NCBI GenBank assembly: GCA_947260005.1
Contig: CAMYOL010000044.1
Coordinates: forward strand, 1 to 40,246
Source: an uncultured Ectothiorhodospiraceae bacterium
GTDB lineage: Bacteria; Pseudomonadota; Gammaproteobacteria; UBA6429; Thiohalophilaceae
Direction of reading: 5' to 3'
DNA: 40,246 nt
Shown here: positions 16,042-38,443 of the stretch, one piece after another
Layout of the letters: the number at the start of each line of letters is the position of its first letter
How positions within the stretch are numbered: position 1 is the stretch's first letter
The notes under the pieces: model-generated
Database searches by the model: none
What the model saw: the letters and a program-made list of their open reading frames with translations, nothing else
What the model was told of the DNA's origin: nothing
Position numbers and translations under genes: made by a program

Positions 16042-16109
16042 TGTTTTCTCCCTGTAATGTATCCTTGAAATTAGAAGAAAGAAAATTAATTATCCTGTGT
16101 TTCCCTGTT

Positions 16110-16127
16110 ATGCCAGTTTGGTTACAT
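16110..16127 (-). promoter_or_regulatory. Possible PhoB box upstream of the GDPD gene
   Basis: Minus strand ATGTAACCAAACTGGCAT: 7-4-7 layout with a good first half-site and one mismatch in the second. A GATAAT at 16089-16094 could be the -10. Spacing to it is a little long, so this is tentative. Confidence 0.4.
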
Positions 16128-16252
16128 TTTGGTTAAGATTGATTGCGAATAAATTTTACCTGGACAGGTTCATATATCCTTAACCTGAAAGTCATTGTTC
16201 TTGAACATTTATACCATAGAATTTTAAGAAATCTATTATGGCAGGATTAATT

Positions 16253-16342
16253 ATGGAGTTAACAAGTAAACAATATAACTGGATGAGTGCAATAGCTGTT
16301 TCCGTGTTACTTGTTATATCGATTGCTACAAGTTTCATCTAG
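16253..16342 (+). CDS. Small single-span membrane protein
   Basis: Twenty-nine codons from ATG 16253 to TAG 16340-16342, with AGGA six bases before the start; an ATG at 16238 in frame would add five residues. The product is a short polar head (MELTSKQYNWM) followed by a single hydrophobic helix (SAIAVSVLLVISIATSFI), the usual form of bacterial small membrane proteins. It lies alone between the divergent GDPD and aminotransferase genes. Real translation is likely but not proven, and function is unknown. Confidence 0.5.
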   Translation: MELTSKQYNWMSAIAVSVLLVISIATSFI

Positions 16343-16561
16343 ATTCAATTTCCGCGCTTTCCCTGTCCTGCAGTGGAAACATCCTCCTGGGGCAGCATTA
16401 GATGCTCTTCGACTACTCTCGTGCTCATATTCAGAGCCGGCCTGATTGCGACTGATCTGGCCGGCCCTGAATCACCTGCATGCCGCTAAATATTCAGCTA
16501 TGTAACACAAATTAAACATGAATATGGTTTAAGTAGTCGTTGATTATTCATTGAAATTTTA
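16343..16561. other. Intergenic with a GC-rich hairpin
   Basis: GCCGGCC (16436-16442) pairs with GGCCGGC (16459-16465) around a 16-base loop. There is no T-run, so it is not a standard terminator. The rest holds no recognisable gene. Confidence 0.45.
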
Positions 16562-16579
16562 ATGTCATCTTTCTGTCAT
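16562..16579 (+). promoter_or_regulatory. PhoB box upstream of the aminotransferase
   Basis: ATGTCATCTTTCTGTCAT: two complete TGTCAT half-sites 11 bases apart, seventeen of eighteen positions compatible with consensus half-site rules. It ends 21 bases before ATG 16601, so the transcript leader is short or the box overlaps the core promoter. Confidence 0.85.
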
Positions 16580-16600
16580 AAAAAGATGAGAGGAAACATA

Positions 16601-21861: not shown

Positions 21862-24800
21862 TTAGTCGATCAAATCCTGGGTTTGCTTTGCAGGAGCAAT
21901 ACCTAATTGTTCATTGAAGACAGTACAGCATTGTTGATAGGCTCTTACGGCCTCTGAATGTTGATCTAGCTTTTTATAACATCGAATTAAACCCTGATAA
22001 AAGGCTTCGACGAGATGATCCGTACTCAGTCCATTGTGGTAACACTCAACGGCAGCTGACCAGTTCTTTGCTTGCTCGTATTGCATCCCTAAATTAGCGG
22101 CGCCTGTAACAAATTTACGTCGCAGACGTTCGCGAGGAGCCAGTATCCAGTGTGCATCCTGTTCACTAGATAGAAAGTTATCGCTATAGTAGTCAAGGGC
22201 ATTTTTCAGATGTTCTATTGAACTATCGGAAGTTTCAAGCGCATGTTCATAGGCCCAAATATCGAGCCAGCAATACTGCGGATTTATACTAATCTTACCT
22301 TCATTGAGCAGTATGGACTCTTTAACTTTTAACAATTTCCTTAGGCGTCCGATATTGGTTTTTAAACTGTCAAGCGCAGCATCACCATCGGCATCAGGCC
22401 AAAGAGTTTCAGCCAGCCGAGTATCTCGAACTTCGCGGCCACCATAAGCAATTAAGGCTTTTAATAACTCCAGTGGTTTTTTTTGTGATTTTCCAGAAAA
22501 TGTGACTTCCTCATCATTTAAAAGTAATTGAAATCTCCCTAATGCGTATATCTTGATTGGGTAGGGCCAATTCGCTAAATCAGGAGGAATTAGTTCTTGA
22601 GTTATATTGTTTCTGGTGATTGCAGTTTTTACGTAGTCTGATTGAATCTTATTTCGTAATGCAAAAACATACAACTCTGTCATTTGTAATGGAATATAAA
22701 ATGGATGTCCAAAATAACCATTGCTTTTTGCTAGTTTAAATGCTTGATCAATATATCGTTTTGCGTCTTTGGTATTTGATGATTTAATGGAAATCCAGGC
22801 TGAAAGCAAGTCACACATATAATAATAAATATTCGATGGGGAGCTCTTTATGGAGTCTCGAATATTGTTTAACTCAATAAGGGCTTTACTTTTCTCTCCG
22901 TTAATAAACAAGGAAAGCGAATAACCATAACGTACTTTGTTAATTTGATAAACTGCACCATGAGATTCCATTAATGTTAATGACATTTTTATTTGTTCTT
23001 TTGCGTACATGGTGTCACCTTCTAATAACGAGTGCCAACCTATAAGTAAATGGTATTGAGCAATATCCAGTTTACTTTGAGTAAGAGTAGTGTGTTCACG
23101 CAGTTTTTTTAAATAACCACTAGCTATATCATAAGAACCAGTGCTGAGCAAATTATAAATTAAAATAGCAAGCAGCCAAGGCGTTAATGAAGAAATACCA
23201 TTTTCATTAGAAAAGTAGAGTCCAGCTTGAATGCTATTGATGCTTTTTGAGTAATCGCCAATAAAGAAGTATATAAACCCATCGTTAATGTTAACTAGCA
23301 ATAATGATAATGGCTCTAACTTATATTCTGCTATAAGGCTATGTGTTATCTCTTGTATAGAAGAGAGTTTTGGCATAAATCCATAAGCAAAAAGATAGAA
23401 GATCAATCCAGAAGCGAGCTGACATTGTAAGTGGTGGTCATTAATATTTTTAAGAAGATGTTCAGCGCGCTGAACGATCTTGTTAGCGTAATTAGGTTCG
23501 GTTTTTTCATAAAAATAGCAACGCAACACCGAAGCTAGGACAGTTGCTTCAATTTTATTTGGCAGATTATTTTTGGATTTGCTATATAAACATTCAAAAT
23601 AGGTAATCCATTTATTTATAGAGCGTAAATTTTCTTGTTGAAACCAAATTGCATCAAGTGCACCAGAAATGCTTAGATACATTCCGCGTAAATTGTTGTC
23701 TTTTTTAAAAATATTGTAGGAATTTGAGAAATGTAATTCAGATGATGCTGGATTTATGTATAAATAACATGAGGCTAACCAATATTGTAACCAAGGATCC
23801 TTGTCAAAAAACGGCTTCGGTAATGATAGCACCCAATTTATGATTAAATTGTATCTGCCTTGTTTTATAAGGGATTCTGCATTTTTTATTATAAGGTTGG
23901 GTAGTTTGTCCCAGCTATTAGCATTTATAAGCAAGTCAATGCCAGCCACTAGTTGTTTATCACTAATTAAAATGTCAGCAGTTTTTTTCATCAAATGAAG
24001 TCTAGCTTTTTTGCTTAACTCACTATGCGCAAGATTAGATAAGAAATCACGAAGAAGTGGATGGTATTCGAAGGCAGTGACACTACTATTCAATTGATAA
24101 GTGAAGAAATTATTATTAACCAGTGTATTTAGAATGCTGTGAGCATTACTGTTGCACGTTATTTGTTTAGCCGTTTCAATATTTATATTAGGTAAAAACG
24201 CCGTTTGTAATAAAAATTTCCTTATTTCATCGTCAGATTGTTCGAATAACTCGCTAGCAAAGTATTTGAATATCTCAGTTTGCGATTGTGACTGATTGAA
24301 TGGTTTAAAAGTGTCGTTTGTAATATGTTGTGTCAGATATAAGGTTAATCCGGCAGCCCAGCCTTGTGTCTGGGAGTGCAAACGAACGATATCATTATCA
24401 GACAAATTGGAACCATCAAACTTATTCTTAATTAGTTCACAGACTTCATCTTCAGAAAACTGTAAGGCTTGCCAATTTAAAGCCTGCACGTGCCCAGATG
24501 TGATTAAACGAGTCAGATTATCGGGAGTAGTGGTACGGCTTAAGGCTAAAACGTGGATGGTTGATGGTATTTCTTGTGCTGCAATCGGCAGTAATGCATC
24601 AATAGGGTTATCTTCACCGGCATCTTGATAGTTATCCAGTACAAAAACACTGTTGTTGGGCAATAGACTAAAAAACTGCCGAAAAAAGTTTCTAGCAAAC
24701 GTTTGCAGACCTTGTAGATATTCAGGTGTAAGTAAGGGTAATTGTTCTGCATCGGGGTTGATCTGCTGCCCTAGTAAACCAAGGTGATAAAAAAATGAGG

Positions 24801-25029
24801 CCAGGTCGTGATCGCCTTCATCGATTTGATACCAATAGGGGGTAAGTTTTTTAGATTGTAAATAGCTTATGGCAAGCGTTGTTTTTCCTGCGCCGGCTGG
24901 ACCCGAGATCCAGGTTACCGGGAAAGCCGCCATTGAATCCAATTGTTTAAATAATCGTGTACGTGATAAAACCTCACCGACTCTCGGCGCTGTGAGTTTG
25001 GCTAGTGGTAGTGGAGTGGTCTGATCCAT
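21862..25029 (-). CDS. MalT/SARP-like giant transcription regulator (STAND ATPase, TPR-like, OmpR-type wHTH, BTAD)
   Basis: A 1055-residue protein. The NTPase module has Walker A GPAGAGKT (43-50), Walker B VFVLD (128-132) and a MalT-like LHSQTQGWAAGL segment. A long helical TPR-like middle follows. The C-terminus has an OmpR-type DNA-binding domain (about 820-910, GKSQKKPLELLKALI and LWPDADGDAALDSLKTNIGR) and a bacterial transcriptional activation domain (BTAD, about 915-1055). Such proteins switch on transcription when ATP and an inducer are bound. ATG 25029 is preferred because AGGGA precedes it by seven bases; a TTG at 25044 is the longer option. It is divergent from the row of lipoprotein genes to its right and may activate them through the shared AATCTGTTACC element; that is inference. 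Confidence 0.85.
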   Translation of the reverse strand: MDQTTPLPLAKLTAPRVGEVLSRTRLFKQLDSMAAFPVTWISGPAGAGKTTLAISYLQSKKLTPYWYQIDEGDHDLASFFYHLGLLGQQINPDAEQLPLLTPEYLQGLQTFARNFFRQFFSLLPNNSVFVLDNYQDAGEDNPIDALLPIAAQEIPSTIHVLALSRTTTPDNLTRLITSGHVQALNWQALQFSEDEVCELIKNKFDGSNLSDNDIVRLHSQTQGWAAGLTLYLTQHITNDTFKPFNQSQSQTEIFKYFASELFEQSDDEIRKFLLQTAFLPNINIETAKQITCNSNAHSILNTLVNNNFFTYQLNSSVTAFEYHPLLRDFLSNLAHSELSKKARLHLMKKTADILISDKQLVAGIDLLINANSWDKLPNLIIKNAESLIKQGRYNLIINWVLSLPKPFFDKDPWLQYWLASCYLYINPASSELHFSNSYNIFKKDNNLRGMYLSISGALDAIWFQQENLRSINKWITYFECLYSKSKNNLPNKIEATVLASVLRCYFYEKTEPNYANKIVQRAEHLLKNINDHHLQCQLASGLIFYLFAYGFMPKLSSIQEITHSLIAEYKLEPLSLLLVNINDGFIYFFIGDYSKSINSIQAGLYFSNENGISSLTPWLLAILIYNLLSTGSYDIASGYLKKLREHTTLTQSKLDIAQYHLLIGWHSLLEGDTMYAKEQIKMSLTLMESHGAVYQINKVRYGYSLSLFINGEKSKALIELNNIRDSIKSSPSNIYYYMCDLLSAWISIKSSNTKDAKRYIDQAFKLAKSNGYFGHPFYIPLQMTELYVFALRNKIQSDYVKTAITRNNITQELIPPDLANWPYPIKIYALGRFQLLLNDEEVTFSGKSQKKPLELLKALIAYGGREVRDTRLAETLWPDADGDAALDSLKTNIGRLRKLLKVKESILLNEGKISINPQYCWLDIWAYEHALETSDSSIEHLKNALDYYSDNFLSSEQDAHWILAPRERLRRKFVTGAANLGMQYEQAKNWSAAVECYHNGLSTDHLVEAFYQGLIRCYKKLDQHSEAVRAYQQCCTVFNEQLGIAPAKQTQDLID

Positions 25030-25069
25030 GCAATTCCCTGGCAAAATAACTTCAAAATAAATAGGTTTT

Positions 25070-25092
25070 AACTTAACTTAACTTAACTTAAC
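25070..25092. repeat. AACTT pentanucleotide tandem repeat
   Basis: Four and a half perfect units of AACTT, ending in AACAT, 40 bases upstream of the regulator start. A five-base repeat in a promoter region can change length by slippage and alter expression. Confidence 0.75.
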
Positions 25093-25333
25093 ATAATTTG
25101 TGGTCGATAATGTTGTGAAGTCGAAGTTATACTAGTGGGGAGAAATTATATTCTGAATTAGGCACAGGTTAATGTCAAATTGCACACAATTTTCTTAATA
25201 CTATTTATACAATAAAGATCTGCATATTCTTATACTAGGTTTAAATGTCCGGCTAACGCACTACGGTTGCTACGAGCTACATAAACTAAGACGTTTGTAA
25301 GATTAATTCCCATTTAAGTCTCAACAAAGTCGG

Positions 25334-25359
25334 TTTTGTTCCCAATCTGTTACCTCTAA
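25334..25359 (+). promoter_or_regulatory. Shared AATCTGTTACC element, copy A
   Basis: TTTTGTTCCCAATCTGTTAC, then CTCTAA, ending 48 bases before ATG 25403. Fifteen or more bases match copy B at 31830. A small inverted repeat (AACAAA/TTTGTT) stands just before it. Confidence 0.7.
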
Positions 25360-25402
25360 GTTGCTATTTTCTCACCATATTCGGTTAGGGAAGGTGAGAA
25401 CA

Positions 25403-26902
25403 ATGCAATACAGGGGACTCCGACACGTTTTTTATTCAAGTTTTCTATTTATCAGTGCTTGCGGTGGTGGCGGGGATGGCGACACACCAACCACCAACCC
25501 AGGTGAATTAGAATTCACGAGCAGCCGTTATCAGGAATCAGAATCCGCAGGTGGAATTTCGTTCGTCGTGACGCGAACAGGGGGGGCGGACGGATTCGTC
25601 AGCGTGGATATTATTCCTAGTAATGGAACCGCGACCGCGGTAGACGATTTTAATGACGCAACCCTGACCGTATTTTTTGACGATGGTGACAGTGCACCAA
25701 AAAATGGCATGGTTAACGTTGTAAATGATTCGGATCCAGAATCGGATGAAACGATAAATCTTACGCTAAGCAATCCAACGGGTGGTGCAACACTCGGTGC
25801 AACAAACACTTCTGTAATCACCATTCTTGATAACGATACGGCACTATTACCAGGTGAACTCCAATTCAGTGCGGCGACCTATCAAGTTGGCGAAGCAGCG
25901 GGCAATGTATCGATTACTGTTACTCGAACGAACGGAACACTAGGTGCCGTCAGTGTGGATGTTGCTACAAGTGGCAACACGGCCACGGCAGATGTGGATT
26001 ATACGACGACTTCCGCCACCGTGAATTTCGCCGATGGTGATAGCACAGCACAAACCATCAATATACCTATTACGAATGACCCGGATCCGGAGTCCAGTGA
26101 AACATTTACCGTCACACTGTCGAATGTCACTGGCGGTGCCAGCATCGGAACACAATCAACATCAATTGTGACTATATTGGATGATGATAATCCAACAGCA
26201 ACGGGCTCGGTGTTAAACGATACGGGTGTGACGACCTGTTCTGATGCAACGGCGAACGGTCTTGCTTGTAATGATGCAACAGCTGGAACCGATCAATTTC
26301 CAGGACAAGATGCCGAACACGGTCGTGATGTCATAGATAATGATGACGGTGATGGTCGTGCTGGATTTTCATTTACCAAATTAGACAGTAACGGAGTGCC
26401 GCTTGCGGATCAAACTGCTGACTACGCAACTACGCCTTGGGATTGCGTGCGCGATAATGTGACGGGTTTGATCTGGGAAGTGAAAACCAATGACGACGGT
26501 CTGCGTGATAAAGACTGGAATTACAGCTGGTATCGCTCTGGTGGCATAACAGCGTTTTCTGGGCCAGGTGCGATAAATGGTGGCACTTGTGTCGATGACA
26601 GTAATTGCGATACCGAAAAATATGTTACCGAAGTGAATGTTTCAGGTATGTGCGGTGCCAATGACTGGCGTTTACCATCACGACATGAACTGTTTTCGCT
26701 GGTAGATTTTGGTGCGACGGCCACACCACTGATTGACACACAGTTTTTTCCAAACTCAATTAGTTCTATGTACTGGACTAGTTCAGAGTCAACGGAAAGT
26801 GGTGGTTCTGCATTTATTGATTTTACAGGTAACCCGTCTGGAAGTGCCATACGCAACATCGAGATGTCGGTTCGTTTAGTGAGAGGGGGGGAATTAAGAT
26901 GA
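25403..26902 (+). CDS. Lipoprotein with two Calx-beta domains and a DUF1566 (Lcl-type) domain
   Basis: A 499-residue exported lipoprotein. ATG 25403 is chosen because AAGGTGAG precedes it; it gives a lipoprotein signal ending in FISAC followed by GGGG. Two Calx-beta repeats cover about 30-140 and 148-250, each with the DPESxET and TILDxD signatures. A DUF1566 domain follows (about 270-499): GRDVIDNDDGDGRAGFSFTK, VTGLIWEVK, CGANDWRLPSRHEL, YWTSSES and a final RLVRG. Calx-beta domains bind calcium; DUF1566 is the C-type-lectin-like fold of Legionella Lcl, a glycosaminoglycan- and collagen-binding adhesin. A role in surface adhesion is likely. The gene overlaps the next by 4 bases. Confidence 0.85.
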   Translation: MQYRGLRHVFYSSFLFISACGGGGDGDTPTTNPGELEFTSSRYQESESAGGISFVVTRTGGADGFVSVDIIPSNGTATAVDDFNDATLTVFFDDGDSAPKNGMVNVVNDSDPESDETINLTLSNPTGGATLGATNTSVITILDNDTALLPGELQFSAATYQVGEAAGNVSITVTRTNGTLGAVSVDVATSGNTATADVDYTTTSATVNFADGDSTAQTINIPITNDPDPESSETFTVTLSNVTGGASIGTQSTSIVTILDDDNPTATGSVLNDTGVTTCSDATANGLACNDATAGTDQFPGQDAEHGRDVIDNDDGDGRAGFSFTKLDSNGVPLADQTADYATTPWDCVRDNVTGLIWEVKTNDDGLRDKDWNYSWYRSGGITAFSGPGAINGGTCVDDSNCDTEKYVTEVNVSGMCGANDWRLPSRHELFSLVDFGATATPLIDTQFFPNSISSMYWTSSESTESGGSAFIDFTGNPSGSAIRNIEMSVRLVRGGELR

Positions 26903-29886
26903 GTTTAATCAATAAATTCAGTTATACCATGATAATGGTGAGCTGCCTGACTATTTCGAAATGGACAAATGCAGATGGGCAAACAAGATCGTTCTCTGCT
27001 TCTAATTTGTTTACGGGGACATTTTCACGAATAATTGGTGTTGAAGACATATTTCAGCATGAACAAAACTTAGGTGGATTTAGAGATGATTTCGGTTTTC
27101 CACCTTATCCAATCGATGTGCAATCGACAATTCCATGGGATCACCCCGGCTTCAGTATAACTACGAGAGAACAAGAACAACAAAATTCTTATGTTTATTC
27201 TGATGAAACTGGGCGAGTTCGTACGCGCGCTCGTACGGGTCTTGATCCTGAGAGTAATTCGAATGCAGCAAATCAATCACTATTTTGGAATGGGGTATTC
27301 GTTCGTGATTCATCAGATTTACCCAGCTTTATATTAAACCGAAGTTGGATTGAACTTCAGGCGACTGCTGGTGGTGAACGTCGGCAACTTAAAAAGGTAT
27401 CGAATATAGGAAATAATCTTTTAAATAATAATAATGTTGAAGCGTTTTCTCCACCTTATGCAGGTATGGAGATTACCGTGGATGTATACAAACTTAACCC
27501 TGATGGTTCTCCATACCGAAGCTTAATACATACCATTCCATATGTCTTTAAACATCGATCTGAAGTAAGTGGTATGATTGGGCACCCATTAAAATCTCAT
27601 AGATTAAAATTACCAGAAACTGAAACAGATGGGTTTGCTTCAGAACTCTTACTCTTGGATCTTTTTGGTAACGTCATGTCAACTTCCGTACATCCTGCAG
27701 TTATAGATGTTCGGCCGCAATACTTGTATACGCGAGGCACCTGTTCTCGCGCTAAAGATAGAAACTGTATAGAATGGCGCGATGGTCGTTTTTATGGCCT
27801 TCGTTATGAGATCCCTTCGTATACTGAAAAATTACCGCTCAATTTCTTAGGAATAAGACAAGGAAATATCTATTCGGTATGGTATGACCTCATGTCGACT
27901 GTAGGTGAGGATTCGGCTGAGCAATTTGCCGAATCCGTACTTGGTGATCCATTGGATAACTCCATAGGTGGTTTTGAGCTGGCAACGCTTGACACACCTG
28001 CTGATAGCACAACACAGGTTTGTAACAAGTTACCCGATGTTTCTCGATTTGTGGTGAATTCGGATGGGACGGCAACAGACATGCATACCGGTTTAATGTG
28101 GCAACGTTGTCCGGTTGGGTTTCTATTAGATGAGAATGGGACGCCATCAACATTAGAGGATGATAGATGTAATCCTGACTCAACAACGGATTATATTTGG
28201 CAAACATCGCTGCAAACGGCAAATACGGATTCTTTTGCCGGGTTTAACGACTGGTATTTGCCAAACATTAAAGAATTGGAATCCATATCACTGGTTTCTT
28301 GTCAAACACCATCGATTAACCGTTATGCATTTCCTGATACCGGTTTTGTCCCTTATTGGTCTTCTACATCAGTTTTAAATGGTCAAGATGCATGGCAAGT
28401 TAATTTTACAAATGGCGTAGTATTCAACTCAGACAAGTCAAGTCAGGCTAAAGTAAGATTAGCACGGCAAAGTGGGATTTCTCCCGTTCGACCTACACCA
28501 GGATTGATTGTACAGGCGGCACAAATTACAGAGCCAGAGAGTGGTACAGAGGATATGAAGTTTGTGCTTACAATAAGCCGACCTGCATTAACTGATGTCG
28601 TCGTTAATTATGATGTTCGAGGTTTAACTGGGACAGAAAATATTGACTTCACTCCTGACTCGAGCTCGATCACCATACCTTCTGGTCAAGTTACGGGTGT
28701 AATTAATGTCCCGGTCAATGCCGACAACGATGTTGAACCAGCAGAGAGTATTGAGCTAGAAATAAGCAATCTATCCGGTGATGCGTATCTTGCCATGCCT
28801 TCTGTGTTAGGTGTGATATTGGATAATGAACCACATGTTTACTTCAGACAGTATCGGGAAGAAGTACAGGAGCGACTAAGTGGTTCGCAATTAACAAATA
28901 TCCTGGTGCAGCTGGATAGACCTGCTACTAATACTGTAACTGTGGACTATAGTACGGCGAACGGTAGTGCCAATAGCGGTTCGGATTACTCAGCCAGCAC
29001 AGGTACGGTTACCTTTAATACCGGGCAACAAGAGGCAGTGATTTCGATTCCGATTAACGGCGATATTGATCCTGAGAATGATGAAACCTTTACCGTCACG
29101 CTTTCAAATCCGGTCGGGGTGCATTTACTTGATTCACTAACGACAGCAACAGTTACGATCATGGATGACGATAGTCCATTTACCTTGTTTGCATTGAATG
29201 ATACCGGTGCGACACGTTGTGCAGATTCTGTTACGGCAGGGTTAACTTGCCCACAAACTGATCACCCAGGTCAAGATGCTGAGTTTGGTCGTGATGTCAC
29301 TGACAATGATCCCAATGATGGTGAGGTAGGCTTTGTCTTTACCAAACTGGATAATTCAGGTAACCCGTTACCACGCAGTGCCAACAGTTGGGATTGTGTG
29401 CGTGATGAAGTCACGGGTCTAATCTGGGAAACCAAGAAACGTGATGTGAATGATTTGCGTCATTATCTCTGGACATACTCCTGGTATAACAGTACAGGTA
29501 TCAATGATGGTGGAGCAGTTGGTACAGAAAATGGTGGTACCTGTCTCGATACCGCTAATTGCGATACTGAAAAATATGTTGCCGCAATTAATACCATGAA
29601 CCTTTGCGGTTTCAATGATTGGCGCCTACCAACGGTGGATGAAGCTTTATCGCTTGGTTACATTGATTGGACATCAAATATAAATCTGCATGGGATTGAT
29701 GCAATTTACTTTCCTAACGTTACCTCTGATCCAGATGGACCACGTACGTGGACGAATACTCCTGATGCGTCAGATACCACCCGTGCCTGGAATGTGGAAC
29801 TGGCATTACCTAATCCAAGTACGGTGCTTGGCGATAAAGCGGCTGATATGACTGTCCGACTTGTACGCGGTGTGCCTGCTCCATAG
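26899..29886 (+). CDS. Large secreted protein with DUF1566 and Calx-beta domains
   Basis: A 995-residue protein, translationally coupled to the preceding lipoprotein (ATGA overlap). A short signal peptide (about 1-26) is followed by a unique region of about 350 residues. A first DUF1566 domain comes next (about 380-530, MHTGLMWQRCPVG, WYLPNIKELESI, YWSSTS), then two Calx-beta domains (about 545-650 and 655-755), and a second DUF1566 domain at the C-terminus (GRDVTDNDPNDG, VTGLIWETKKRD, CGFNDWRLPTVDE). The last domain is closely related to the C-terminal domain of the upstream gene, and the first resembles the protein at 29908, so domains have been duplicated and shuffled inside this operon. 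Probably an extracellular or outer-membrane-associated adhesin. Confidence 0.85.
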   Translation: MSLINKFSYTMIMVSCLTISKWTNADGQTRSFSASNLFTGTFSRIIGVEDIFQHEQNLGGFRDDFGFPPYPIDVQSTIPWDHPGFSITTREQEQQNSYVYSDETGRVRTRARTGLDPESNSNAANQSLFWNGVFVRDSSDLPSFILNRSWIELQATAGGERRQLKKVSNIGNNLLNNNNVEAFSPPYAGMEITVDVYKLNPDGSPYRSLIHTIPYVFKHRSEVSGMIGHPLKSHRLKLPETETDGFASELLLLDLFGNVMSTSVHPAVIDVRPQYLYTRGTCSRAKDRNCIEWRDGRFYGLRYEIPSYTEKLPLNFLGIRQGNIYSVWYDLMSTVGEDSAEQFAESVLGDPLDNSIGGFELATLDTPADSTTQVCNKLPDVSRFVVNSDGTATDMHTGLMWQRCPVGFLLDENGTPSTLEDDRCNPDSTTDYIWQTSLQTANTDSFAGFNDWYLPNIKELESISLVSCQTPSINRYAFPDTGFVPYWSSTSVLNGQDAWQVNFTNGVVFNSDKSSQAKVRLARQSGISPVRPTPGLIVQAAQITEPESGTEDMKFVLTISRPALTDVVVNYDVRGLTGTENIDFTPDSSSITIPSGQVTGVINVPVNADNDVEPAESIELEISNLSGDAYLAMPSVLGVILDNEPHVYFRQYREEVQERLSGSQLTNILVQLDRPATNTVTVDYSTANGSANSGSDYSASTGTVTFNTGQQEAVISIPINGDIDPENDETFTVTLSNPVGVHLLDSLTTATVTIMDDDSPFTLFALNDTGATRCADSVTAGLTCPQTDHPGQDAEFGRDVTDNDPNDGEVGFVFTKLDNSGNPLPRSANSWDCVRDEVTGLIWETKKRDVNDLRHYLWTYSWYNSTGINDGGAVGTENGGTCLDTANCDTEKYVAAINTMNLCGFNDWRLPTVDEALSLGYIDWTSNINLHGIDAIYFPNVTSDPDGPRTWTNTPDASDTTRAWNVELALPNPSTVLGDKAADMTVRLVRGVPAP

Positions 29887-29907
29887 AGAATTCATGAGGA
29901 TAAAACA

Positions 29908-30459
29908 ATGATGAAACGAGTAATAACTTATTTGGTTTTTATGTTGGCCGTAGGTGTTTGTCAGGCGGAACAAGTTTGTAATACACAAATTATTGCAACA
30001 AACCCTACCTATCAATATACCGCATCAGCAGACGGAACGGTGTTTGATAGCCGAACGGGATTAACATGGCAGCGTTGTCCTTTAGGTTATGTGATAAACG
30101 ACAGCGGTACAGCAGATATTTTTGACGATGACGTCTGCATTGAGATCGGAGTAGTTAAATTCGAATGGCAGGGAGCATTGCAGGCTGCTGAGTCTCAGAA
30201 TAATGCCGGCGGTTTTGCAGGGTTTACAGATTGGCGTATTCCTAATATTAAAGAACTAGCTTCGACTATTGAACATAAGTGCTTTTCGCCGGCGATCAAC
30301 CTAAAGGCCTTTCCTTTTGTTGATGGTGACAAGTTTTGGTCCTCGACGATTTATGCGATTACTGATGTTGCAGGAATAGTTAACTTTCGGTTTGGTCGCA
30401 TCGACCTGAGTAGGAAGGTTACCACCATACCAGAGCAATTAGTGAGATTGGTGAGATAA
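29908..30459 (+). CDS. Secreted single-domain DUF1566 protein
   Basis: A 183-residue exported protein. The signal peptide is residues 1-20 (MMKRVITYLVFMLAVGVCQA). The rest is one DUF1566 domain: SRTGLTWQRCPLGY, WRIPNIKELAST, FWSSTIYAI, and a closing LVRLVR. It resembles the first DUF1566 domain of the 995-residue protein. GAGGAT precedes ATG 29908 by eight bases, and the gene follows the large secreted protein after 21 bases, so it is the third gene of the same operon. Confidence 0.85.
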   Translation: MMKRVITYLVFMLAVGVCQAEQVCNTQIIATNPTYQYTASADGTVFDSRTGLTWQRCPLGYVINDSGTADIFDDDVCIEIGVVKFEWQGALQAAESQNNAGGFAGFTDWRIPNIKELASTIEHKCFSPAINLKAFPFVDGDKFWSSTIYAITDVAGIVNFRFGRIDLSRKVTTIPEQLVRLVR

Positions 30460-30515
30460 AATTAGCAATAACTTAAAGTCGTTTCCTTACTGTTATTTTA
30501 GTAAATATATAATGA

Positions 30516-30902
30516 CTTTCAGTTAGTTTAGGTACATTAGGCCCGGTACAAGAAATCACGACTGGTGCTTCGCATACATGTGCATTATTAAGTAATGGCA
30601 CTGTTAAGTGTTGGGGTAATAATCTTACAGGACAGCTTGGGTTAGGTGATATAAATGATCGAGGAGATGAGCCAGGTGAGATGGGTTTCTTTTTACCTGC
30701 TGTTGACTTAGGAACAAGAAGGACAGCCTTGTCGATAAGTGCGGGTTTTAATCATACTTGTGCGTTGCTGGATGACGGAGCTGTGAAATGCTGGGGACAT
30801 AATTCTTCAGGTCAATTTGGCCAGGAGCATACGCTTACTGTCGGTAACAATGTTATTCAAATGGGTGATGCATTACCGGTTATAGATCTTGGTAGTCCAT
30901 AG
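30516..30902 (+). pseudogene. RCC1-repeat protein remnant
   Basis: An open frame of 128 codons after a TGA at 30513-30515. It encodes two RCC1-type propeller repeats: ITTGASHTCALLSNGTVKCW with GNNLTGQLGLGD, and ISAGFNHTCALLDDGAVKCW with GHNSSGQFG. It ends at a normal TAG. There is no start codon or signal peptide before the first repeat; the first ATG (30681) lies in the middle. A full RCC1 propeller has seven repeats, so this is the C-terminal scrap of a larger secreted protein. Confidence 0.7.
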
Positions 30903-31035
30903 AGGTTGCTTGCAGGTTTTCTCCGTAGTTTAAACTTGTAGCATATGTCTTGAGTAAAACTTTACTCCAGGCAATCTAAAGTAAATTACGCATTGTAAAT
31001 AAATAGAAGATTATAGAGTTAAGTAGGTAGAGATT

Positions 31036-31194
31036 ATGAATGTCACTAAAATTTTATCGATTCTAAGTTTGTTAATATTAGTAACTGCCTGTGGTGGCGG
31101 AGGCGGTGGTGGTGACACACCGGCCGTGACTTTGGATTCAATTAGTATATCTCCTGCAACACCGGTTACTGAAGAAGGCACTAGTCAGCCTTAG
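31036..31194 (+). pseudogene. Truncated lipoprotein (N-terminal scrap)
   Basis: Fifty-two codons from ATG 31036: a perfect lipoprotein signal (SLLILVTAC then a glycine run) followed by LDSISISPATPVTEEGTSQ, the usual opening of a bacterial Ig-like (BIG2) domain, and then TAG. The rest of the protein is missing. Proteins of this kind often continue into Ig and RCC1 repeats, so it could be the displaced head of the RCC1 remnant next door. It may still be translated and lipidated. Confidence 0.6.
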
Positions 31195-31260
31195 AGATGA
31201 GGTTTAGGTGTTTAAGCTTACAGACGTTCTCCGTACATACTCGTCACTCGTCTGTTTTTT

Positions 31261-31295
31261 AGCAGGAGATAGCTGTCTATCTCCTGCTAATTTTT
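31261..31295 (+). terminator. Strong rho-independent terminator
   Basis: AGCAGGAGATAG, 4-base loop, CTATCTCCTGCT, then AATTTTT. It ends only 14 bases before the GNAT start codon, so it may act as an attenuator for that gene as well as end the preceding transcript. Confidence 0.9.
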
Positions 31296-31309
31296 AAAGG
31301 AAAATAACA

Positions 31310-31768
31310 ATGGGTGACTTACGTTTAAGAATGACTTCGATTGAGGATCTTAGGCAGACTCTGGATCTTATTGAGATGTTTCATCAGGAAGAAGACCTTA
31401 CGTATGTAGAAGAGACGACCCGGATAGGAGTATGCGCCTTATTAGGTACCAGTTCCTTTGGACGTATCTGGTTGGTTACGCTTGATAATAAAACAATTGG
31501 CTATGTCGCTATCTGTTTTAGTTATTCAATCGAGTATATCGGGCGGGACGCGATTCTAGGCGAGTTTTATATTCAGCCGGAGTATCGGGGTAATGGGATT
31601 GGTTTAAAGATATTATCTATCGTTAAAGCAGAGTTGGAAATCCTGGGGTTTAAAGCATTGCATGCTGAAGTTAACAAATTTAATGATTCAGCTCGTTCAG
31701 TTTATGAGTTATCAGGTTTTAACCTGCGAGAACATTACCATCATATGTCTGCTCAGTTGGGAAAATAA
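31310..31768 (+). CDS. GNAT-family N-acetyltransferase
   Basis: A 152-residue single-domain acetyltransferase. The acetyl-CoA pyrophosphate-binding motif is EFYIQPEYRGNGIGLKIL (about 83-100, with RGNGIG), and a C-terminal VNKFNDSARSVYELSGF segment is typical for the family. It transfers acetyl from acetyl-CoA to an amine; the substrate cannot be told. AAAGGA precedes ATG 31310. It is monocistronic between a strong terminator and the next promoter and seems unrelated in function to the lipoproteins around it. Confidence 0.85.
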   Translation: MGDLRLRMTSIEDLRQTLDLIEMFHQEEDLTYVEETTRIGVCALLGTSSFGRIWLVTLDNKTIGYVAICFSYSIEYIGRDAILGEFYIQPEYRGNGIGLKILSIVKAELEILGFKALHAEVNKFNDSARSVYELSGFNLREHYHHMSAQLGK

Positions 31769-31829
31769 TGATGTAATAATAGTTATGTGTCAAAAGTAAG
31801 AGGGTAATATTTCTTAAGTCAAAATATTA

Positions 31830-31855
31830 TTTTGTTCCCAATCTGTTACCGCTAA
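31830..31855 (+). promoter_or_regulatory. Shared AATCTGTTACC element, copy B
   Basis: TTTTGTTCCCAATCTGTTAC, then CGCTAA, ending 46 bases before ATG 31897. Nearly the same as copy A; preceded by a small inverted repeat (CAAAAT/ATTTTG). Confidence 0.7.
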
Positions 31856-31896
31856 TAGCATAAAGTACAAGAAACTTGTCAATGTAGGTAGTGAGT

Positions 31897-34014
31897 ATGA
31901 AAAATTGGGGCTTTTTTATTACATATAGTATTGCTTTTGTGCTGACTGCATGCGGAGGAGGTGGCGGTACAGGAAATACTCCAGGGACTAGCTGTACAAC
32001 TCCTTCCCAAGAGATGTGGATAACTAATGATGAAGTGCAAGCCATGGTTGTGTCGGAGGATGGCTGCACGGTTTATCTTGGTGGTGGTTTCACTCAAATA
32101 GGTCCACGTACAGGATTTGGCGTACCCATCAATTCATCAACCGGAGATCTGGAGCCAAACTATCCAATAATCAATGGTGAAGTACGAACCGTACTATCCG
32201 ATGGAAACGATGGTTGGTATGTCGGCGGTGACTTCACTAAGGTAGGTCAGCTATCCCGAAACAACCTTGTGCATCTATTTTCGGACGGCAGTGTTGACAC
32301 AAATTTTGTATTCGACGTGGATAATGCCGTTAATACCATGGCACTCTCTGGAAATATACTATACATAGGCGGTGCATTTAGAAATATAGATAGTAATGAA
32401 CAAAATCACATAGCGGCTATCGATCTAAATACCGACTCATTGACAGGATGGAATCCTGGTGCTAATTCAACCGTTAGTACGATTCAAGTTGGCGTGTCGA
32501 CGGTTTATGTTGGTGGTAGTTTTACCAACATTGGTGAACAGAATCGTAATTATATTGCTGAGTTAGATATATCCACCGGGTTAGCGACCAGTTGGGATCC
32601 AAGTGCAAGTCGATCAGTTAAAACTTTAGCCCTGGATGGTTTAATTATTTTTGCCGGAGGAGGGTTTGCAAACATTGGTGGACAAACACGCAGATTTCTT
32701 GCTGCACTGGATGTGAACACGGGGTTGGCAACTTCTTGGGATCCTAATCCAAACTCAACAATAAATAAACTTATTGTGGCAGGTACAAGTTTATATATTG
32801 GTGGTGATTTTAGACTGATTGGTGGTCAAGGACGAAATTATATTGCAGAGGTAGATACTACAACAGGTGGGTTAACTTCTTGGGATCCTTCGGCAGATAA
32901 TTCTGTTACTGAACTGTCTGGTGATAATAACTTAATCTATGCAGGTGGACGTTTTAATGTAATTGGTGTTGAAGATCGTAATCACCTTGCGGCTATTGAT
33001 AGAGTAACTGGGTTGGTTTCTGACTGGAACCCGAATCCTAATAATAGAGTTTTTGCTCTTGCAGTTTCAAATTCCACCGTTTTCGCAGGGGGGCGGTTTT
33101 CTTCGATAGATGGTGTTTCTCGTAATTATCTTGCTGCCGTTGATATCACTACAGGCCAGCCGACGACATGGAATCCAAATGCGAATGACTGGGTGTATTC
33201 AATCGTTATCGATGGTCAATCAATTTATGTGGCCGGTGATTTTACACAGGTAAATAGTGTTGATCGTAACTATATTGCTGCAGTCGATAGTGTAGATGGA
33301 CAAATTACATCTTGGGATCCAAATGCAAATAACACCGTTAATGTGTTGGCTAAGTCAGATTCAAATATCTATGCGGGTGGTTTTTTTACTTCGATTGGAA
33401 GCGATACTCGTAATCGACTGGCTGCACTCGACAAGACAACAGCTATAGCTACAGCCTGGGACCCAAATGCAAATGGGCTTGTTAATTCATTGTTTGTAAC
33501 AGACGTCAGTGTATATACCGTTGGTAATTTTACCAATATAGGTGGAATGGATCGCAACTATATCGCTGAAATTGATCGTGTGACGGGCATAGCAACAACT
33601 TGGGATCCAAGTGCCGACTCCATGATTAGTGATATCGATGTTTTAGAATCAACCATTTATGTGGGTGGTTTGTTTACCACTATTGGTGGTTTAAATCGAA
33701 GTTTTATAGCTGAGCTGGATAGGGCAACCGGTATTGCCACGGCATGGGATCCTTCTGTCGATGATGGCGTTTTCGTACTTAAAGTGACCGATAGTGTTGT
33801 TTATGCGGGTGGCGACTTTCAGAACATTGGAGCAGAGAGCAGGAGCTATCTTGCTGCTATTGATAGAACAACTGGTTTAGCCACGGCATGGAATCCAAAT
33901 CCAAATAACACGATTGAAACGCTGGTTACTTTTGATGGAAATATATTATTCGGAGGAGACTTCACAACTGTAAATGATGAAGTCCGAGAGGGGTATGCGG
34001 TTATTTCGGAATAA
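31897..34014 (+). CDS. Lipoprotein beta-propeller with about twelve DUF5122-like repeats
   Basis: A 705-residue lipoprotein. ATG 31897 is chosen over GTG 31891 because AGG lies eight bases before it; it gives the signal MKNWGFFITY ... FVLTAC followed by glycines. The rest is about twelve repeats of 48 residues with the pattern YVGGxFTxIGGxxRNYIA-xLDxxTGxATxWDPxAN, as in DUF5122-type propeller proteins. The repeats are strongly alike, a sign of recent internal duplication. No catalytic site is seen. It is likely a surface-exposed binding protein. The shared element at 31830-31855 stands before it. Confidence 0.8.
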   Translation: MKNWGFFITYSIAFVLTACGGGGGTGNTPGTSCTTPSQEMWITNDEVQAMVVSEDGCTVYLGGGFTQIGPRTGFGVPINSSTGDLEPNYPIINGEVRTVLSDGNDGWYVGGDFTKVGQLSRNNLVHLFSDGSVDTNFVFDVDNAVNTMALSGNILYIGGAFRNIDSNEQNHIAAIDLNTDSLTGWNPGANSTVSTIQVGVSTVYVGGSFTNIGEQNRNYIAELDISTGLATSWDPSASRSVKTLALDGLIIFAGGGFANIGGQTRRFLAALDVNTGLATSWDPNPNSTINKLIVAGTSLYIGGDFRLIGGQGRNYIAEVDTTTGGLTSWDPSADNSVTELSGDNNLIYAGGRFNVIGVEDRNHLAAIDRVTGLVSDWNPNPNNRVFALAVSNSTVFAGGRFSSIDGVSRNYLAAVDITTGQPTTWNPNANDWVYSIVIDGQSIYVAGDFTQVNSVDRNYIAAVDSVDGQITSWDPNANNTVNVLAKSDSNIYAGGFFTSIGSDTRNRLAALDKTTAIATAWDPNANGLVNSLFVTDVSVYTVGNFTNIGGMDRNYIAEIDRVTGIATTWDPSADSMISDIDVLESTIYVGGLFTTIGGLNRSFIAELDRATGIATAWDPSVDDGVFVLKVTDSVVYAGGDFQNIGAESRSYLAAIDRTTGLATAWNPNPNNTIETLVTFDGNILFGGDFTTVNDEVREGYAVISE

Positions 34015-34030
34015 ACGTAAATTATTGCTA

Positions 34031-34066
34031 AACATCGTGTCGATGTTTTTAATCTGTTACCAGTAG
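34031..34066 (+). promoter_or_regulatory. Terminator-like hairpin and shared AATCTGTTACC element, copy C
   Basis: AACATCG TGT CGATGTT then TTT (34031-34050), a small terminator for the preceding gene, runs directly into AATCTGTTACC (34051-34061). The element ends 46 bases before ATG 34108, the same spacing as in copies A and B. Confidence 0.6.
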
Positions 34067-34107
34067 ATATATATGATTAATAAAAATTGTTAGGGTAGGT
34101 GTTTATT

Positions 34108-36783
34108 ATGAAAAATATGAGAATTATCTTTATAATAGGTTTTATTGTTTCTATAGTGTCTTGTGGTGGAAGTGGGGGCTCTGCGCAACCTTCTAGCGAG
34201 GAAGATGCATATCAGATCGGAGGTTCTGTTTCTGGGTTAAGTGGTAGTGGCTTAACAATTCAGAATAATTTGGGGGACTCACTGGTTATTAGTAACAACG
34301 GTCCGTTTACCTTTTCAGCAGAGCTGGTTGAAGGGGATGGCTATGATGTTTCAATACTAACTAATCCAACTCTCCGATCGCAAACGTGCACAGTCAGTAA
34401 TGCAACAGGAACAGTATCAGATTTTAATATTTCGGATGTTGATATTGTATGTGTCACGAATCAATATGACGTTAGCTTAACTGTTTCTGGGTTAAGTGGT
34501 GAAGGTTTGGTTTTGCAGAACAATGGTTTTGATGATTTACCGATCGCAAATGACGGTGGTTACACATTTTCTCGTTCTGTATTAAGTGGAGAAGAATTTT
34601 CCGTCTCAATCTTGTCTGACCCGACAGGACCGATCCAGGACTGCTCAGTTAATAATGCCAATGGAACAATTACCGATGACGATGCTCAAGTGGCTGTAAC
34701 CTGTGTTTCTCGGTTAGGCAGATTTGCCTATGTATTGAATAATAGAAATGGCAGAAATAGTAATATCTCAATGTACACCTTTGCTAATAATACGGAGCAA
34801 TTACGCCATAACGGGTATGTCCTAACAGGAGGAAATAATTCAATTAAAATATCAGCAGACGGTAGAGGATTATTTGTCTATACACTAAACCGAGATGGTA
34901 GTGTTGGTGAAAGCTCAATTTCAGCTTTTGCCATTGACCAAACAAATGGCAAGCTAAATTCATTAGTCGATGTCCCCTATGATACGAGAGGTCTTGATTC
35001 CAGTGATTTTGCCATAAGTCCATTAGGTCGGCATCTATACACGGTTAATCAAGCATCAGATGATATTTCTATATTCTTACTTGAAGAAAGTCGTGGTGAT
35101 TTGACGTATGTTGGAAGCATTCAATCTGGTGGGGACGACCCGATAAATATTGAAATAGATCCAAGCGGTCGATATGTTTATGTCGCCAATACAAATTCCA
35201 GTGATATTTCTGCTTTTTTAGTCGAAGCTGACGGTACATTATCTCCAATCGATGCGGATGCAAATACTCAAGGTATGCAAAATACTATTGCGATCGAGGG
35301 GGGAGGAGTAAGCTCTTTGACAATCGATAAATCGGGTAGAAACTTATACGCCGTTGACATAGACACGAGAACGATTACTACATTTTTAGTCAATAACAGT
35401 ACAGGCTCATTGGTTCAGGTAGATTCGTTTGCGACAAGGCTGTCGGCTCCATTTGAGTTAACTATAGACAATAGTAGTGAATATGCATATATAAGTTTTT
35501 CTAGCTCGGATATGGTTAATGCATATAGCATAGATCAATTTTCAGGTGTGTTGTCACCGATTGGTAGGCCTTTAGATACGAATGATGAACCTATATCAGT
35601 CAATATCGATCCTAGTGGGCAGTATCTCTATGTAACCAATGCCCTAGCGAATGACATTTCAATATTTGACGTGAATAATCAGAATGGAAGATTGTCTTCG
35701 CTTGGTTTAGTCAATACAAGAGAAACTCCAATAGATATGGTCATTACTCAAGGAAATGATGTTGTACAATATTCATCTGATTATGCATATATTACTAGTG
35801 AAGGAACAAATTCAATTGAAAAATTGACTATAGATTCCGATACGGGAGAATTATCGGTATCAACTAATCAGTTCCGAACCGATGCTGGACCGGTGGCAAT
35901 GGCTATCGATTCATTAAAACGATTTGCCTATGTTGCGCACCGTGGCAATAACACTATTTCACAGTTCGCTATTGATACAGCCGGAGATTTAACGCGACTT
36001 TCCGTTCCATCCATTAGCACTAATTATAATGCTATTGATATTAAGATCGAAGCGTCTGCGCGATTTGTCTATGCCTTAACTGGCAACGCTATAACGGGAG
36101 ATAGTTTTGTAGTACCGTATAGAATTAACCAGAATAGCGGTGAACTTGCGATAATAAGCCCACCTATAAATGCGGGTTCATTTTCACTTGGTTTAACAAT
36201 CGATCCGACCGGTCGTTTTATATATGTATCAAACTTAAATGGCGGAATCTCTCAGTTCAGGATTGATTTAGCTGGCGGTCTAATTCAACCAATTGGAAAT
36301 CTAGTTGGTGCAGGTTACTTATTTGTTTCATCAGAAATTGACCCTAATGGTCAATTTTTATATGCGATAGACAGAGGTAGTGACAGCATTGTTAGTTATT
36401 CAATCGATAATATTACTGGAGAATTAACGGAAATTGGAACGCCAGTCAGTGGATCTGGTAGTAACATGATCGATCTTACGATCGAACCCTCTGGTCGATA
36501 TCTGTATGCCGCAAATGAAGGTTCAGATGATGTTTTGACTTTTTCTATTGATCAGGTGACGGGTATGCTTAATGAAGAGGGTGCGCCGACAGCAGCAAAT
36601 GTCAACCCCGTATCAATAACTACTGATCTATCAGGCCGCTATGGCTACGTTGTAAATAAAAATTCCAACGATCTTACTACCTTTGGCATTAATTTAAACA
36701 CGGGCGAGCTTTCAGAAATAGGAACGGAGGTTCTGCTTAACTCAACACCTTCAGCAATAGCGATAACTGGCTCATTAAACTGA
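34108..36783 (+). CDS. Lipoprotein with tandem Ig-like N-terminal repeats and a YncE/lactonase-like beta-propeller
   Basis: An 891-residue lipoprotein. ATG 34108 gives a signal ending VSIVSC followed by GGSGGS. Two copies of an 80-residue domain come next (about 27-110 and 115-200), each with SGLSGxGLxxQNN, ISNNGPFTF-like and CTVSNATGTVSD segments. The remainder is a beta-propeller with repeats of about 50 residues (PSGRYVYVANTNSSDISAF, FSIDQVTGML), as in the lactonase/YncE group. With roughly twelve such blades' worth of sequence, there may be two propellers. No lactonase catalytic residues can be asserted. It is probably surface-anchored. Regulation through the element at 34051-34061 is inferred. 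Confidence 0.8.
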   Translation: MKNMRIIFIIGFIVSIVSCGGSGGSAQPSSEEDAYQIGGSVSGLSGSGLTIQNNLGDSLVISNNGPFTFSAELVEGDGYDVSILTNPTLRSQTCTVSNATGTVSDFNISDVDIVCVTNQYDVSLTVSGLSGEGLVLQNNGFDDLPIANDGGYTFSRSVLSGEEFSVSILSDPTGPIQDCSVNNANGTITDDDAQVAVTCVSRLGRFAYVLNNRNGRNSNISMYTFANNTEQLRHNGYVLTGGNNSIKISADGRGLFVYTLNRDGSVGESSISAFAIDQTNGKLNSLVDVPYDTRGLDSSDFAISPLGRHLYTVNQASDDISIFLLEESRGDLTYVGSIQSGGDDPINIEIDPSGRYVYVANTNSSDISAFLVEADGTLSPIDADANTQGMQNTIAIEGGGVSSLTIDKSGRNLYAVDIDTRTITTFLVNNSTGSLVQVDSFATRLSAPFELTIDNSSEYAYISFSSSDMVNAYSIDQFSGVLSPIGRPLDTNDEPISVNIDPSGQYLYVTNALANDISIFDVNNQNGRLSSLGLVNTRETPIDMVITQGNDVVQYSSDYAYITSEGTNSIEKLTIDSDTGELSVSTNQFRTDAGPVAMAIDSLKRFAYVAHRGNNTISQFAIDTAGDLTRLSVPSISTNYNAIDIKIEASARFVYALTGNAITGDSFVVPYRINQNSGELAIISPPINAGSFSLGLTIDPTGRFIYVSNLNGGISQFRIDLAGGLIQPIGNLVGAGYLFVSSEIDPNGQFLYAIDRGSDSIVSYSIDNITGELTEIGTPVSGSGSNMIDLTIEPSGRYLYAANEGSDDVLTFSIDQVTGMLNEEGAPTAANVNPVSITTDLSGRYGYVVNKNSNDLTTFGINLNTGELSEIGTEVLLNSTPSAIAITGSLN

Positions 36784-38257: not shown

Positions 38258-38443
38258 ATGAGCATGCAAAGCTATGTTATTCGAATATATCGATACAAGG
38301 AAAATAGACCAGATAAGCTTGTGGGTACAATAGAAGGAGAAGGGTATGATGTACCAGCCTCATTTACTAATATTGAAGAGCTATGGTCTGCCCTAAATAA
38401 TAATCATACAATTTTAACGGATTCAGAAAGTGTCTCAGAATGA
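38258..38443 (+). CDS. Small conserved-type cytosolic protein
   Basis: Sixty-one residues from ATG 38258 (GAGG upstream; a second ATG six bases on). The sequence YVIRIYRYKENRPDKLVG, then a FTNIEELWSAL helix, matches a compact beta-beta-alpha plan seen in small bacterial proteins whose function I do not know. It overlaps the following receiver gene by 14 bases, which suggests the two are made together. Confidence 0.6.
   Translation: MSMQSYVIRIYRYKENRPDKLVGTIEGEGYDVPASFTNIEELWSALNNNHTILTDSESVSE

Follow-up and report, generated by a model that had tools for sequence, protein, structure and literature searches.

We investigated a stretch of 40,246 nucleotides (the window) from an uncultured gammaproteobacterium of the Ectothiorhodospiraceae (contig CAMYOL010000044.1 of assembly GCA_947260005.1), in which the 11-bp sequence AATCTGTTACC stands before three lipoprotein genes, beside the gene of a large regulator. 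Three exact copies were found in the window, all on the plus strand (A, 25344-25354; B, 31840-31850; C, 34051-34061), and the ATG codons at 25403, 31897 and 34108 begin 48, 46 and 46 nt past them, which reproduces the fixed distance before lipoprotein genes described in the original prediction. Each copy proved to belong to a larger element, which is very probably an activator operator fused to a promoter and read by the C-terminal SARP domain of the neighbouring STAND regulator. The features concerned are as follows; box scores are from a position weight matrix (PWM).

21862 to 25044, minus strand: regulator, a MalT-like STAND ATPase, a middle region, and a C-terminal winged helix and BTAD (the SARP domain); 1060 aa from a TTG, with an ATG at 25029
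25334 to 25355, plus strand: box A, direct repeats 25334-25344 and 25345-25355, PWM score 19.3 against a threshold of 13.9
25365 to 25370, plus strand: predicted -10 of A, TATTTT, at offset +20 as in relatives
25403 to 26902, plus strand: lipoprotein gene A, two Calx-beta stretches and Lcl_C (DUF1566-like), from Pfam
31830 to 31851, plus strand: box B, direct repeats 31830-31840 and 31841-31851, PWM score 16.3
31861 to 31866, plus strand: predicted -10 of B, TAAAGT
31897 to 34014, plus strand: lipoprotein gene B, DUF5122 / beta-propeller
34041 to 34062, plus strand: box C, second half-site (34052-34062) good, first (34041-34051) degenerate
34072 to 34077, plus strand: predicted -10 of C, TATGAT
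34108 to 36783, plus strand: lipoprotein gene C, lactonase-type beta-propeller

The element consists of a direct repeat with a period of 11 bp and a -10 hexamer, and A and B read TTTTGTTCCCA and then ATCTGTTACC. At these two the repeat unit is TnTGTTnCC, and 7 of the 10 aligned half-site bases are equal. The consensus of the box is ATCTGTnAnnn twice, of which the window form is TTTTGTTCCCA followed by ATCTGTTACCn. At A, B and C alike, the hexamer TANNNT starts at +20, counted from the first base of the second half-site, and 10 nt past AATCTGTTACC; that half-site lies 58, 56 and 56 nt from the ATG. The predicted leaders are about 25 nt long; the distance to the start codon is thus constant because the spacing from box to -10 is fixed and the leader is short. 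In the first half-site of C, hardly more than TGTT is preserved, and the site runs into the 3' arm of an upstream terminator-like hairpin (34030-34048). The small inverted repeats reported before each copy were uneven, with a terminator-like hairpin and T run at C and an AT-rich 8-bp stem at B, but only a 6-bp stem at A; those at B and C look more like ends of the genes upstream than components of the element. Another inverted repeat, TTCTCACC/GGTGAGAA (25369-25376 and 25393-25400), spans the predicted transcript start of A and its ribosome-binding site. An RNA leader element (riboswitch) was rejected, as the window gave 0 Rfam matches at the gathering threshold and the box is upstream of the predicted -10.

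In the whole genome (3,712,427 bases in 81 contigs), the bare AATCTGTTACC was not enriched, with 6 occurrences when both strands are counted and 5 of the reversed control, and the three copies outside the window were all inside open reading frames (ORFs). At that rate (3 in about 3.67 Mb), a stretch of window size would be expected to contain about 0.03 copies, although the window was chosen after the copies had been seen. Regarding frequency inside genes, the bare 11-mer and the composite element part company: the other copies of the former are intragenic, but exact matches to AATCTGTTACC-N10-TANNNT in the genome are confined to A, B and C. When up to 3 mismatches were allowed, the composite element was found 467 times against 429 for the control, with no clear excess, and only exact matches are informative.

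The sequence TTTTGTTCCC, said to be common to A and B, is indeed present before both copies, and a search of 40 genomes that tolerated up to 3 mismatches placed TTTTGTTCCCAATCTGTTACCNCTAA at A and B only. Such sharing would also be seen if A, B and C were one promoter recently copied together with its gene, still undiverged and not under selection, and the exact identity of A and B over 21 bp plus CTAA speaks for this. Lipoprotein arrays are moreover known to expand by duplication, which we counted on the same side. However, the flanks outside the element show little similarity among the copies, and the two pairs of proteins compared, A with B and B with C, had no significant homology (best E 6.6 and 0.06), so more than the copying of one gene is needed to explain A, B and C. 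Considering that the same architecture is also met in other phyla, recent duplication as the explanation is scarcely credible, while copying of the promoter only, followed by selection, is possible and compatible with an operator read by the neighbouring regulator.

By eye, proteins A, B and C all begin with a plausible lipobox. Two further genes probably share the transcript of A:

26899 to 29886, plus strand: Lcl_C/Calx-beta gene, whose start overlaps the end of A (26899-26902)
29908 to 30459, plus strand: Lcl_C gene

The region between A and B contains fragments (30540-30900, 31037-31195) that by eye resemble the remnant of an RCC1-type repeat and a lipoprotein gene cut short, the latter with a signal peptide, a glycine run and then a stop.

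Further evidence comes from relatives of the regulator. A scan of genome contigs gave 437 of them, and the best 80 loci were kept (1.25 Mb, both strands scanned), with titles naming Gamma-, Beta- and Deltaproteobacteria, Nitrospirae, a Deferribacteres bacterium, Thiothrix and Nitrosomonas. Counts are of loci and not of independent events, since the same or near-identical assemblies are among the 80 (L121/L122, L109/L133, L147/L155). The pattern ATCTGT-N5-ATCTGT occurred 24 times, while other spacings from 0 to 17 gave 0-2 each, the reversed hexamer gave 0 and about 0.10 was expected from hexamer frequency; ATCTGT (with its complement) was the commonest hexamer repeated at 11 bp in these loci, and TA stood at +20 in 15 of the 24. 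The full PWM, whose threshold was set by construction to leave 2 matches in shuffled loci, had 86 matches in 60 of the 80 loci against 1 for the reversed PWM. A leave-one-locus-out PWM of the repeats only (above 14 bits) still found 85 matches, reduced to 80 boxes once overlapping ones were merged; these fell in 58 of 80 loci (controls: shuffled 5.0, reversed PWM 6). Although the -10 lay outside that scan, TA was found at +20 in 51 of the 80 boxes and TANNNT in 37, the next-best offset giving 11 and 7. Both marks of a SARP operator, direct repeats of 11-bp period and a box over the -35 at a fixed distance from the -10, were thus present. Moreover, 46 of the 80 boxes are no more than 500 bp from the regulator gene, a zone that makes up 6% of the bases.

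In another genus of the same family (G014), AATCTGTTCCCAATCTGTCACG-N10-TAGTTT stands beside a regulator homologue, about 200 nt before a lipoprotein gene. In a third genus (G022), two divergent boxes adjoin the homologue, one 156 nt before a lipoprotein gene and the other upstream of a short lipoprotein-like ORF (by eye). Both homologues have 34-35% identity to the window regulator. As for the genes downstream of the 80 boxes, a crude classifier assigned 28 to small proteins, the commonest recognised target, 16 to lipoproteins and 13 to proteins with a signal or transmembrane segment, with 20 other or unclear, 2 the regulator itself and 1 contig end; against backgrounds of 13.6% (lipoprotein) and 35.5% (signal or transmembrane), this crude signal-peptide classifier showed no enrichment of secreted targets in the 80 loci. 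In three genomes of one genus (G060, G207 and G314; loci L087, L088 and L089), boxes occupy a seemingly orthologous spot that does not adjoin the regulator genes found in the 369-genome draw described below.

A fixed distance from element to -10, and with it a fixed distance to the start codon, would also be produced by a promoter of an alternative sigma factor, for example of the ECF type, with the 11-mer as its -35 and no SARP protein involved. We regard this as very improbable. A single -35 with a -10 of other than sigma70 type, as expected of ECF promoters, was not what we found: the unit is doubled at 11 bp with covarying half-sites, and the -10 is a sigma70-like TANNNT, preceded by an extended TGn at 22 of the 51 sites. 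The -35 is poor: none of the 51 sites shares more than 3 of 6 bases with TTGACA. The boxes also adjoin a regulator with a SARP domain, whose winged helix they follow weakly in sequence. The original suggestion of a common promoter or activator site for the adjacent BTAD regulator is supported by the comparative evidence, with a site larger than the 11-mer.

In the regulator itself, Pfam BTAD (51.5 bits, cut-off 22.1) and Trans_reg_C (27.0, cut-off 26.2) cover residues 855-1058 of 1060. Matches of the N-terminus to Pfam NACHT/AAA were weak and under the cut-off; NCBIfam MalT aligned with residues 15-791 (E 9.8e-49, 166 bits, under the family cut-off of 537), and NCBIfam AfsR with residues 843-923, also under its family cut-off. 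A search of solved structures with the sequence of the SARP domain brought up chiefly designed TPR proteins and TPR domains, with AfsR only at E 0.051, so a fold search was needed. An AlphaFold model of the C-terminal 252 residues, built on an alignment of 45 sequences, reached a predicted local distance difference test score (pLDDT) of 91.9, and all 6 of its Foldseek matches at E<=0.001 were AfsR or EmbR (TMq 0.68-0.72). The protein has the OmpR-like winged helix followed by BTAD of a SARP, but at its C-terminus, whereas small and large SARPs have the domain at the N-terminus in the passages available of a review (PMC10972967). A C-terminal LuxR-type helix-turn-helix (HTH), the mark of MalT and LAL proteins, is likewise lacking, as the protein ends in Trans_reg_C and BTAD. 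Upstream of the gene, a tandem array of TTAAC (5.8 copies, 25068-25096) lies 24-52 bp from the TTG and 39-67 bp from the ATG, and its 5-bp units could alter promoter spacing (phase variation).

Five SARP-like matches were found in the genome, including those on contigs C22, C26, C51 and C65. On C65, 11 boxes of the ATCTGTCAGYTATCTGTGACAGC type, all on the plus strand and all with TA at +20, extend over 16.9-46.4 kb and adjoin the gene of a 336-aa SARP without a STAND part. Nine have at most 2 mismatches to the core and two have 3; two relaxed matches without TA at +20 (23036 and 40985, 3 mismatches each) were excluded from the 11, and no minus-strand box with up to 2 mismatches was found in the array. 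In 7 of the 8 boxes examined, an assigned start lies 53-59 nt past the second half-site, several starts having been chosen among alternatives, and the genes after these 7 have a secreted or lipoprotein look by eye. Among individual boxes, that at 28130 has no ORF over 60 aa, that at 34270 an ORF start about 200 nt on, that at 46004 precedes a small protein, and that at 46372 has no assigned gene. The C65 array is also flanked by a 27-mer, CATCTGTTACTCCATTTCGTTTATACT, in opposite orientation (15385, minus; 47074, plus), near transposase-like ORFs (15560-16611, by eye), as if insertion-sequence ends bounded the array. The C26 regulator has a dialect of its own, ACTTTGTGACTGGTTTGTGACC, before its small-protein gene, with a PWM score of 14.6, just above threshold.

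With several SARP-like proteins in one genome, and with a core TGT common to the boxes of different clusters, the window boxes might be operators of a different regulator, such as the short SARP of C65 or an unlinked factor, and their adjacency to the STAND regulator incidental. This is highly improbable, given that the three box-bearing clusters each have their own dialect (TGTTnCC in the window, TTTGTGACyG on C26, ATCTGTCAGy/TGACAG on C65) and that the boxes of the 80 loci concentrate next to the regulator gene.

A conserved companion of these regulators is a family of small proteins of about 65 aa with the consensus YIVRIYRR...VG.VE.VG...F.N..EL..IL, present in 37 of the 80 homologue loci and with a box upstream in 28. 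Members in the window and elsewhere are:

38258 to 38443, plus strand: YIVRIYRR-family small protein, 61 aa, of the kind that often accompanies these regulators
L073, 3793 to 4008, minus strand: YIVRIYRR-family member
L204, about 12782 to 12997, plus strand: YIVRIYRR-family member

Three copies exist in the genome, one per box-bearing SARP cluster, and none at the SARP-like matches of C22 and C51. Of the two members searched, those of the window and of L115, neither matched a family in Pfam or NCBIfam, and the best PHROGs value for the latter was only 0.053. The model of the small protein (pLDDT 78.5) is a beta hairpin and a helix, without a match among PDB folds at E<=0.001. We can only guess that the protein acts as feedback on the regulator or as its partner.

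We assessed the co-occurrence of boxes and regulators in 369 genomes of the class, taken in a single draw; the regulator (E<=1e-60) was present in 44. The pattern ATCTGTNCNCNATCTGTNAC-N11-TA with up to 1 mismatch occurred in 5 genomes, all among the 44 (Fisher 2e-5). The family consensus, ATCTGTNANNNATCTGTNA-N12-TA, was found exactly in 6 genomes, again all among the 44 (2e-6), and with up to 1 mismatch in 28, 11 of them among the 44 (1e-4; reversed control, 8 matches). The discovery genome, G000, is in every count, and its exclusion leaves 4/4, 5/5 and 10/27; other genomes from which the consensus was built may also be within the 369, as G025 appears to be L119. The small-protein family was present in 17 of the 369, 10 of these among the 44.

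The two half-sites of a box covary. Positions 6-8 are equal in 66, 54 and 58 of the 80 boxes against shuffled means of 47.1, 39.9 and 31.0, and positions 6-9 pooled gave 216 equal against 150 +/- 6.9, which 0 of 5000 shuffles reached. This is as expected if identical subunits read both half-sites. For the 56 regulators that have a box no more than 2 kb away, the raw correlation of winged-helix identity with box identity was r 0.16. With the identity of the STAND part and middle region removed, partial r was 0.22 (1 of 2000 permutations), a small value in a partial Mantel analysis and one of five tests, uncorrected; the box tracks the winged helix weakly. BTAD identity had no correlation with box identity (partial r 0.03), and that of the STAND part was negative.

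Further results also weigh against reading of the boxes by the neighbouring regulator. Box C is absent from the PWM matches above 9 and is a weak site, and the small-protein gene of the window (38258-38443) has no box directly upstream. No box was found in the 19-kb stretch around the short BTAD regulator of C22, and 22 of the 80 homologue loci had no leave-one-out match. In Thiothrix fructosivorans (L134), both the regulator and the small protein occur, but none of its boxes reached the threshold. Among 20 further homologue loci, 9 were above the PWM threshold and 11, several of them on short contigs, were not; this set excludes L086, which had been fetched by the pattern itself, and 3 of the 9 seem identical to places among the 80. 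The relaxed ATCTGTNANNNATCTGTNA-N12-TA was also present in 17 of the 325 genomes without a strong regulator match. A motif-free count of direct repeats in front of 863 ORFs gave no clear peak at period 11, so the signal emerges only with the motif. Nor is activation certain, because GSU1771, the nearest characterised Gram-negative SARP found, represses some targets according to passages of PMC10599522, and by analogy the sign of control could differ here.

From the computed repeats, spacings, conservation beside homologues and domain fold, we infer binding of this protein to these sites, activation, and the sigma factor used. In the mechanism that we propose, two 11-bp direct repeats, one helical turn apart, cover the place of the -35, with a sigma70-like -10 (TANNNT) at +20. 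Because the -35 is poor, RNA polymerase would need help. Most likely, two SARP domains (winged helix and BTAD) dock next to each other on the repeats as a dimer and so hold or recruit polymerase at the promoter as AfsR does, while the MalT-like N-terminal part would gate the SARP head in response to a signal. The targets would be the surface lipoproteins A (probably with the two following Lcl_C genes), B and C.

A wider reading is that the locus represents a widespread, unnamed Gram-negative control module. Its regulator would be a MalT-like STAND ATPase whose C-terminal SARP head reads a box dialect private to the module; the surface-protein genes would stand in arrays, each under its own promoter, and a dedicated companion of about 65 aa may feed back on the regulator. 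A genome could carry several insulated copies, each in its own dialect. The case for this reading seems to us evenly balanced. Loci titled Gamma-, Beta- and Deltaproteobacteria and Nitrospirae repeat the operator grammar of SARPs, and most often the distance to the -10 is the same as well. The motif could predict the regulons of many such regulators (437 relatives), the natural dialects could be used for studying the specificity of SARPs for DNA, and the small-protein family could serve as a test object.

Most of what is known of SARP activators and 11-bp repeat boxes comes from the antibiotic clusters of actinomycetes, and MalT, the maltose activator of Escherichia coli, ends in a LuxR-type HTH. 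The window regulator is similar to MalT in its N-terminal STAND ATPase and helical region but ends in a SARP domain. We found no description of this box or regulator type in the parts of the open-licence literature available to us, and in the passages of one survey (PMC7040171) most proteobacterial matches of its SARP profile had no HTH or BTAD domains. GSU1771 of Geobacter sulfurreducens, which in the passages of PMC10599522 binds several promoters in electrophoretic mobility shift assays and is reported as both repressor and activator, shares a C-terminal SARP region in a Gram-negative bacterium, but it has an N-terminal receiver domain where the window regulator has a STAND ATPase; those passages give no operator motif. 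The PimR-type SARP-LAL regulators, as far as passages of PMC5930380 describe them, resemble our system in repeats of a heptamer and 4-bp spacer with an 11-bp period, at least two of which are needed, and in a SARP joined to a LAL-like ATPase part. In contrast, their domain order, bacteria and targets are different, and the main PimR operator has three heptamers and is clear of the -35. Another likeness is to AfsR of Streptomyces coelicolor. According to passages of PMC10936776, the afs box of the afsS promoter consists of two 11-bp repeats centred at -29.5 that overlap a poor -35, and two SARP domains of AfsR lie side by side on the DNA, touching sigma region 4 and core polymerase. With this system the window shares a 22-bp operator of two 11-bp direct repeats over a poor -35, the fold of winged helix and BTAD (Foldseek matches 8k60 and 8hvr) and a large protein with NOD/TPR parts; set against the same passages (PMC10936776), the repeat here is ATCTGTnAnnn, the targets are surface lipoproteins, and the centre would be at about -32.5 when the -10 is taken as -12 to -7. 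Based on the AfsR precedent, boxes centred at about -32.5 and a -35 with at most 3 of 6 matches, we therefore propose SARP-type activation by a C-terminal head, in a protein where a STAND sensor and a SARP domain are fused in the reverse order of AfsR, which carries the domain at its N-terminus (PMC10936776).

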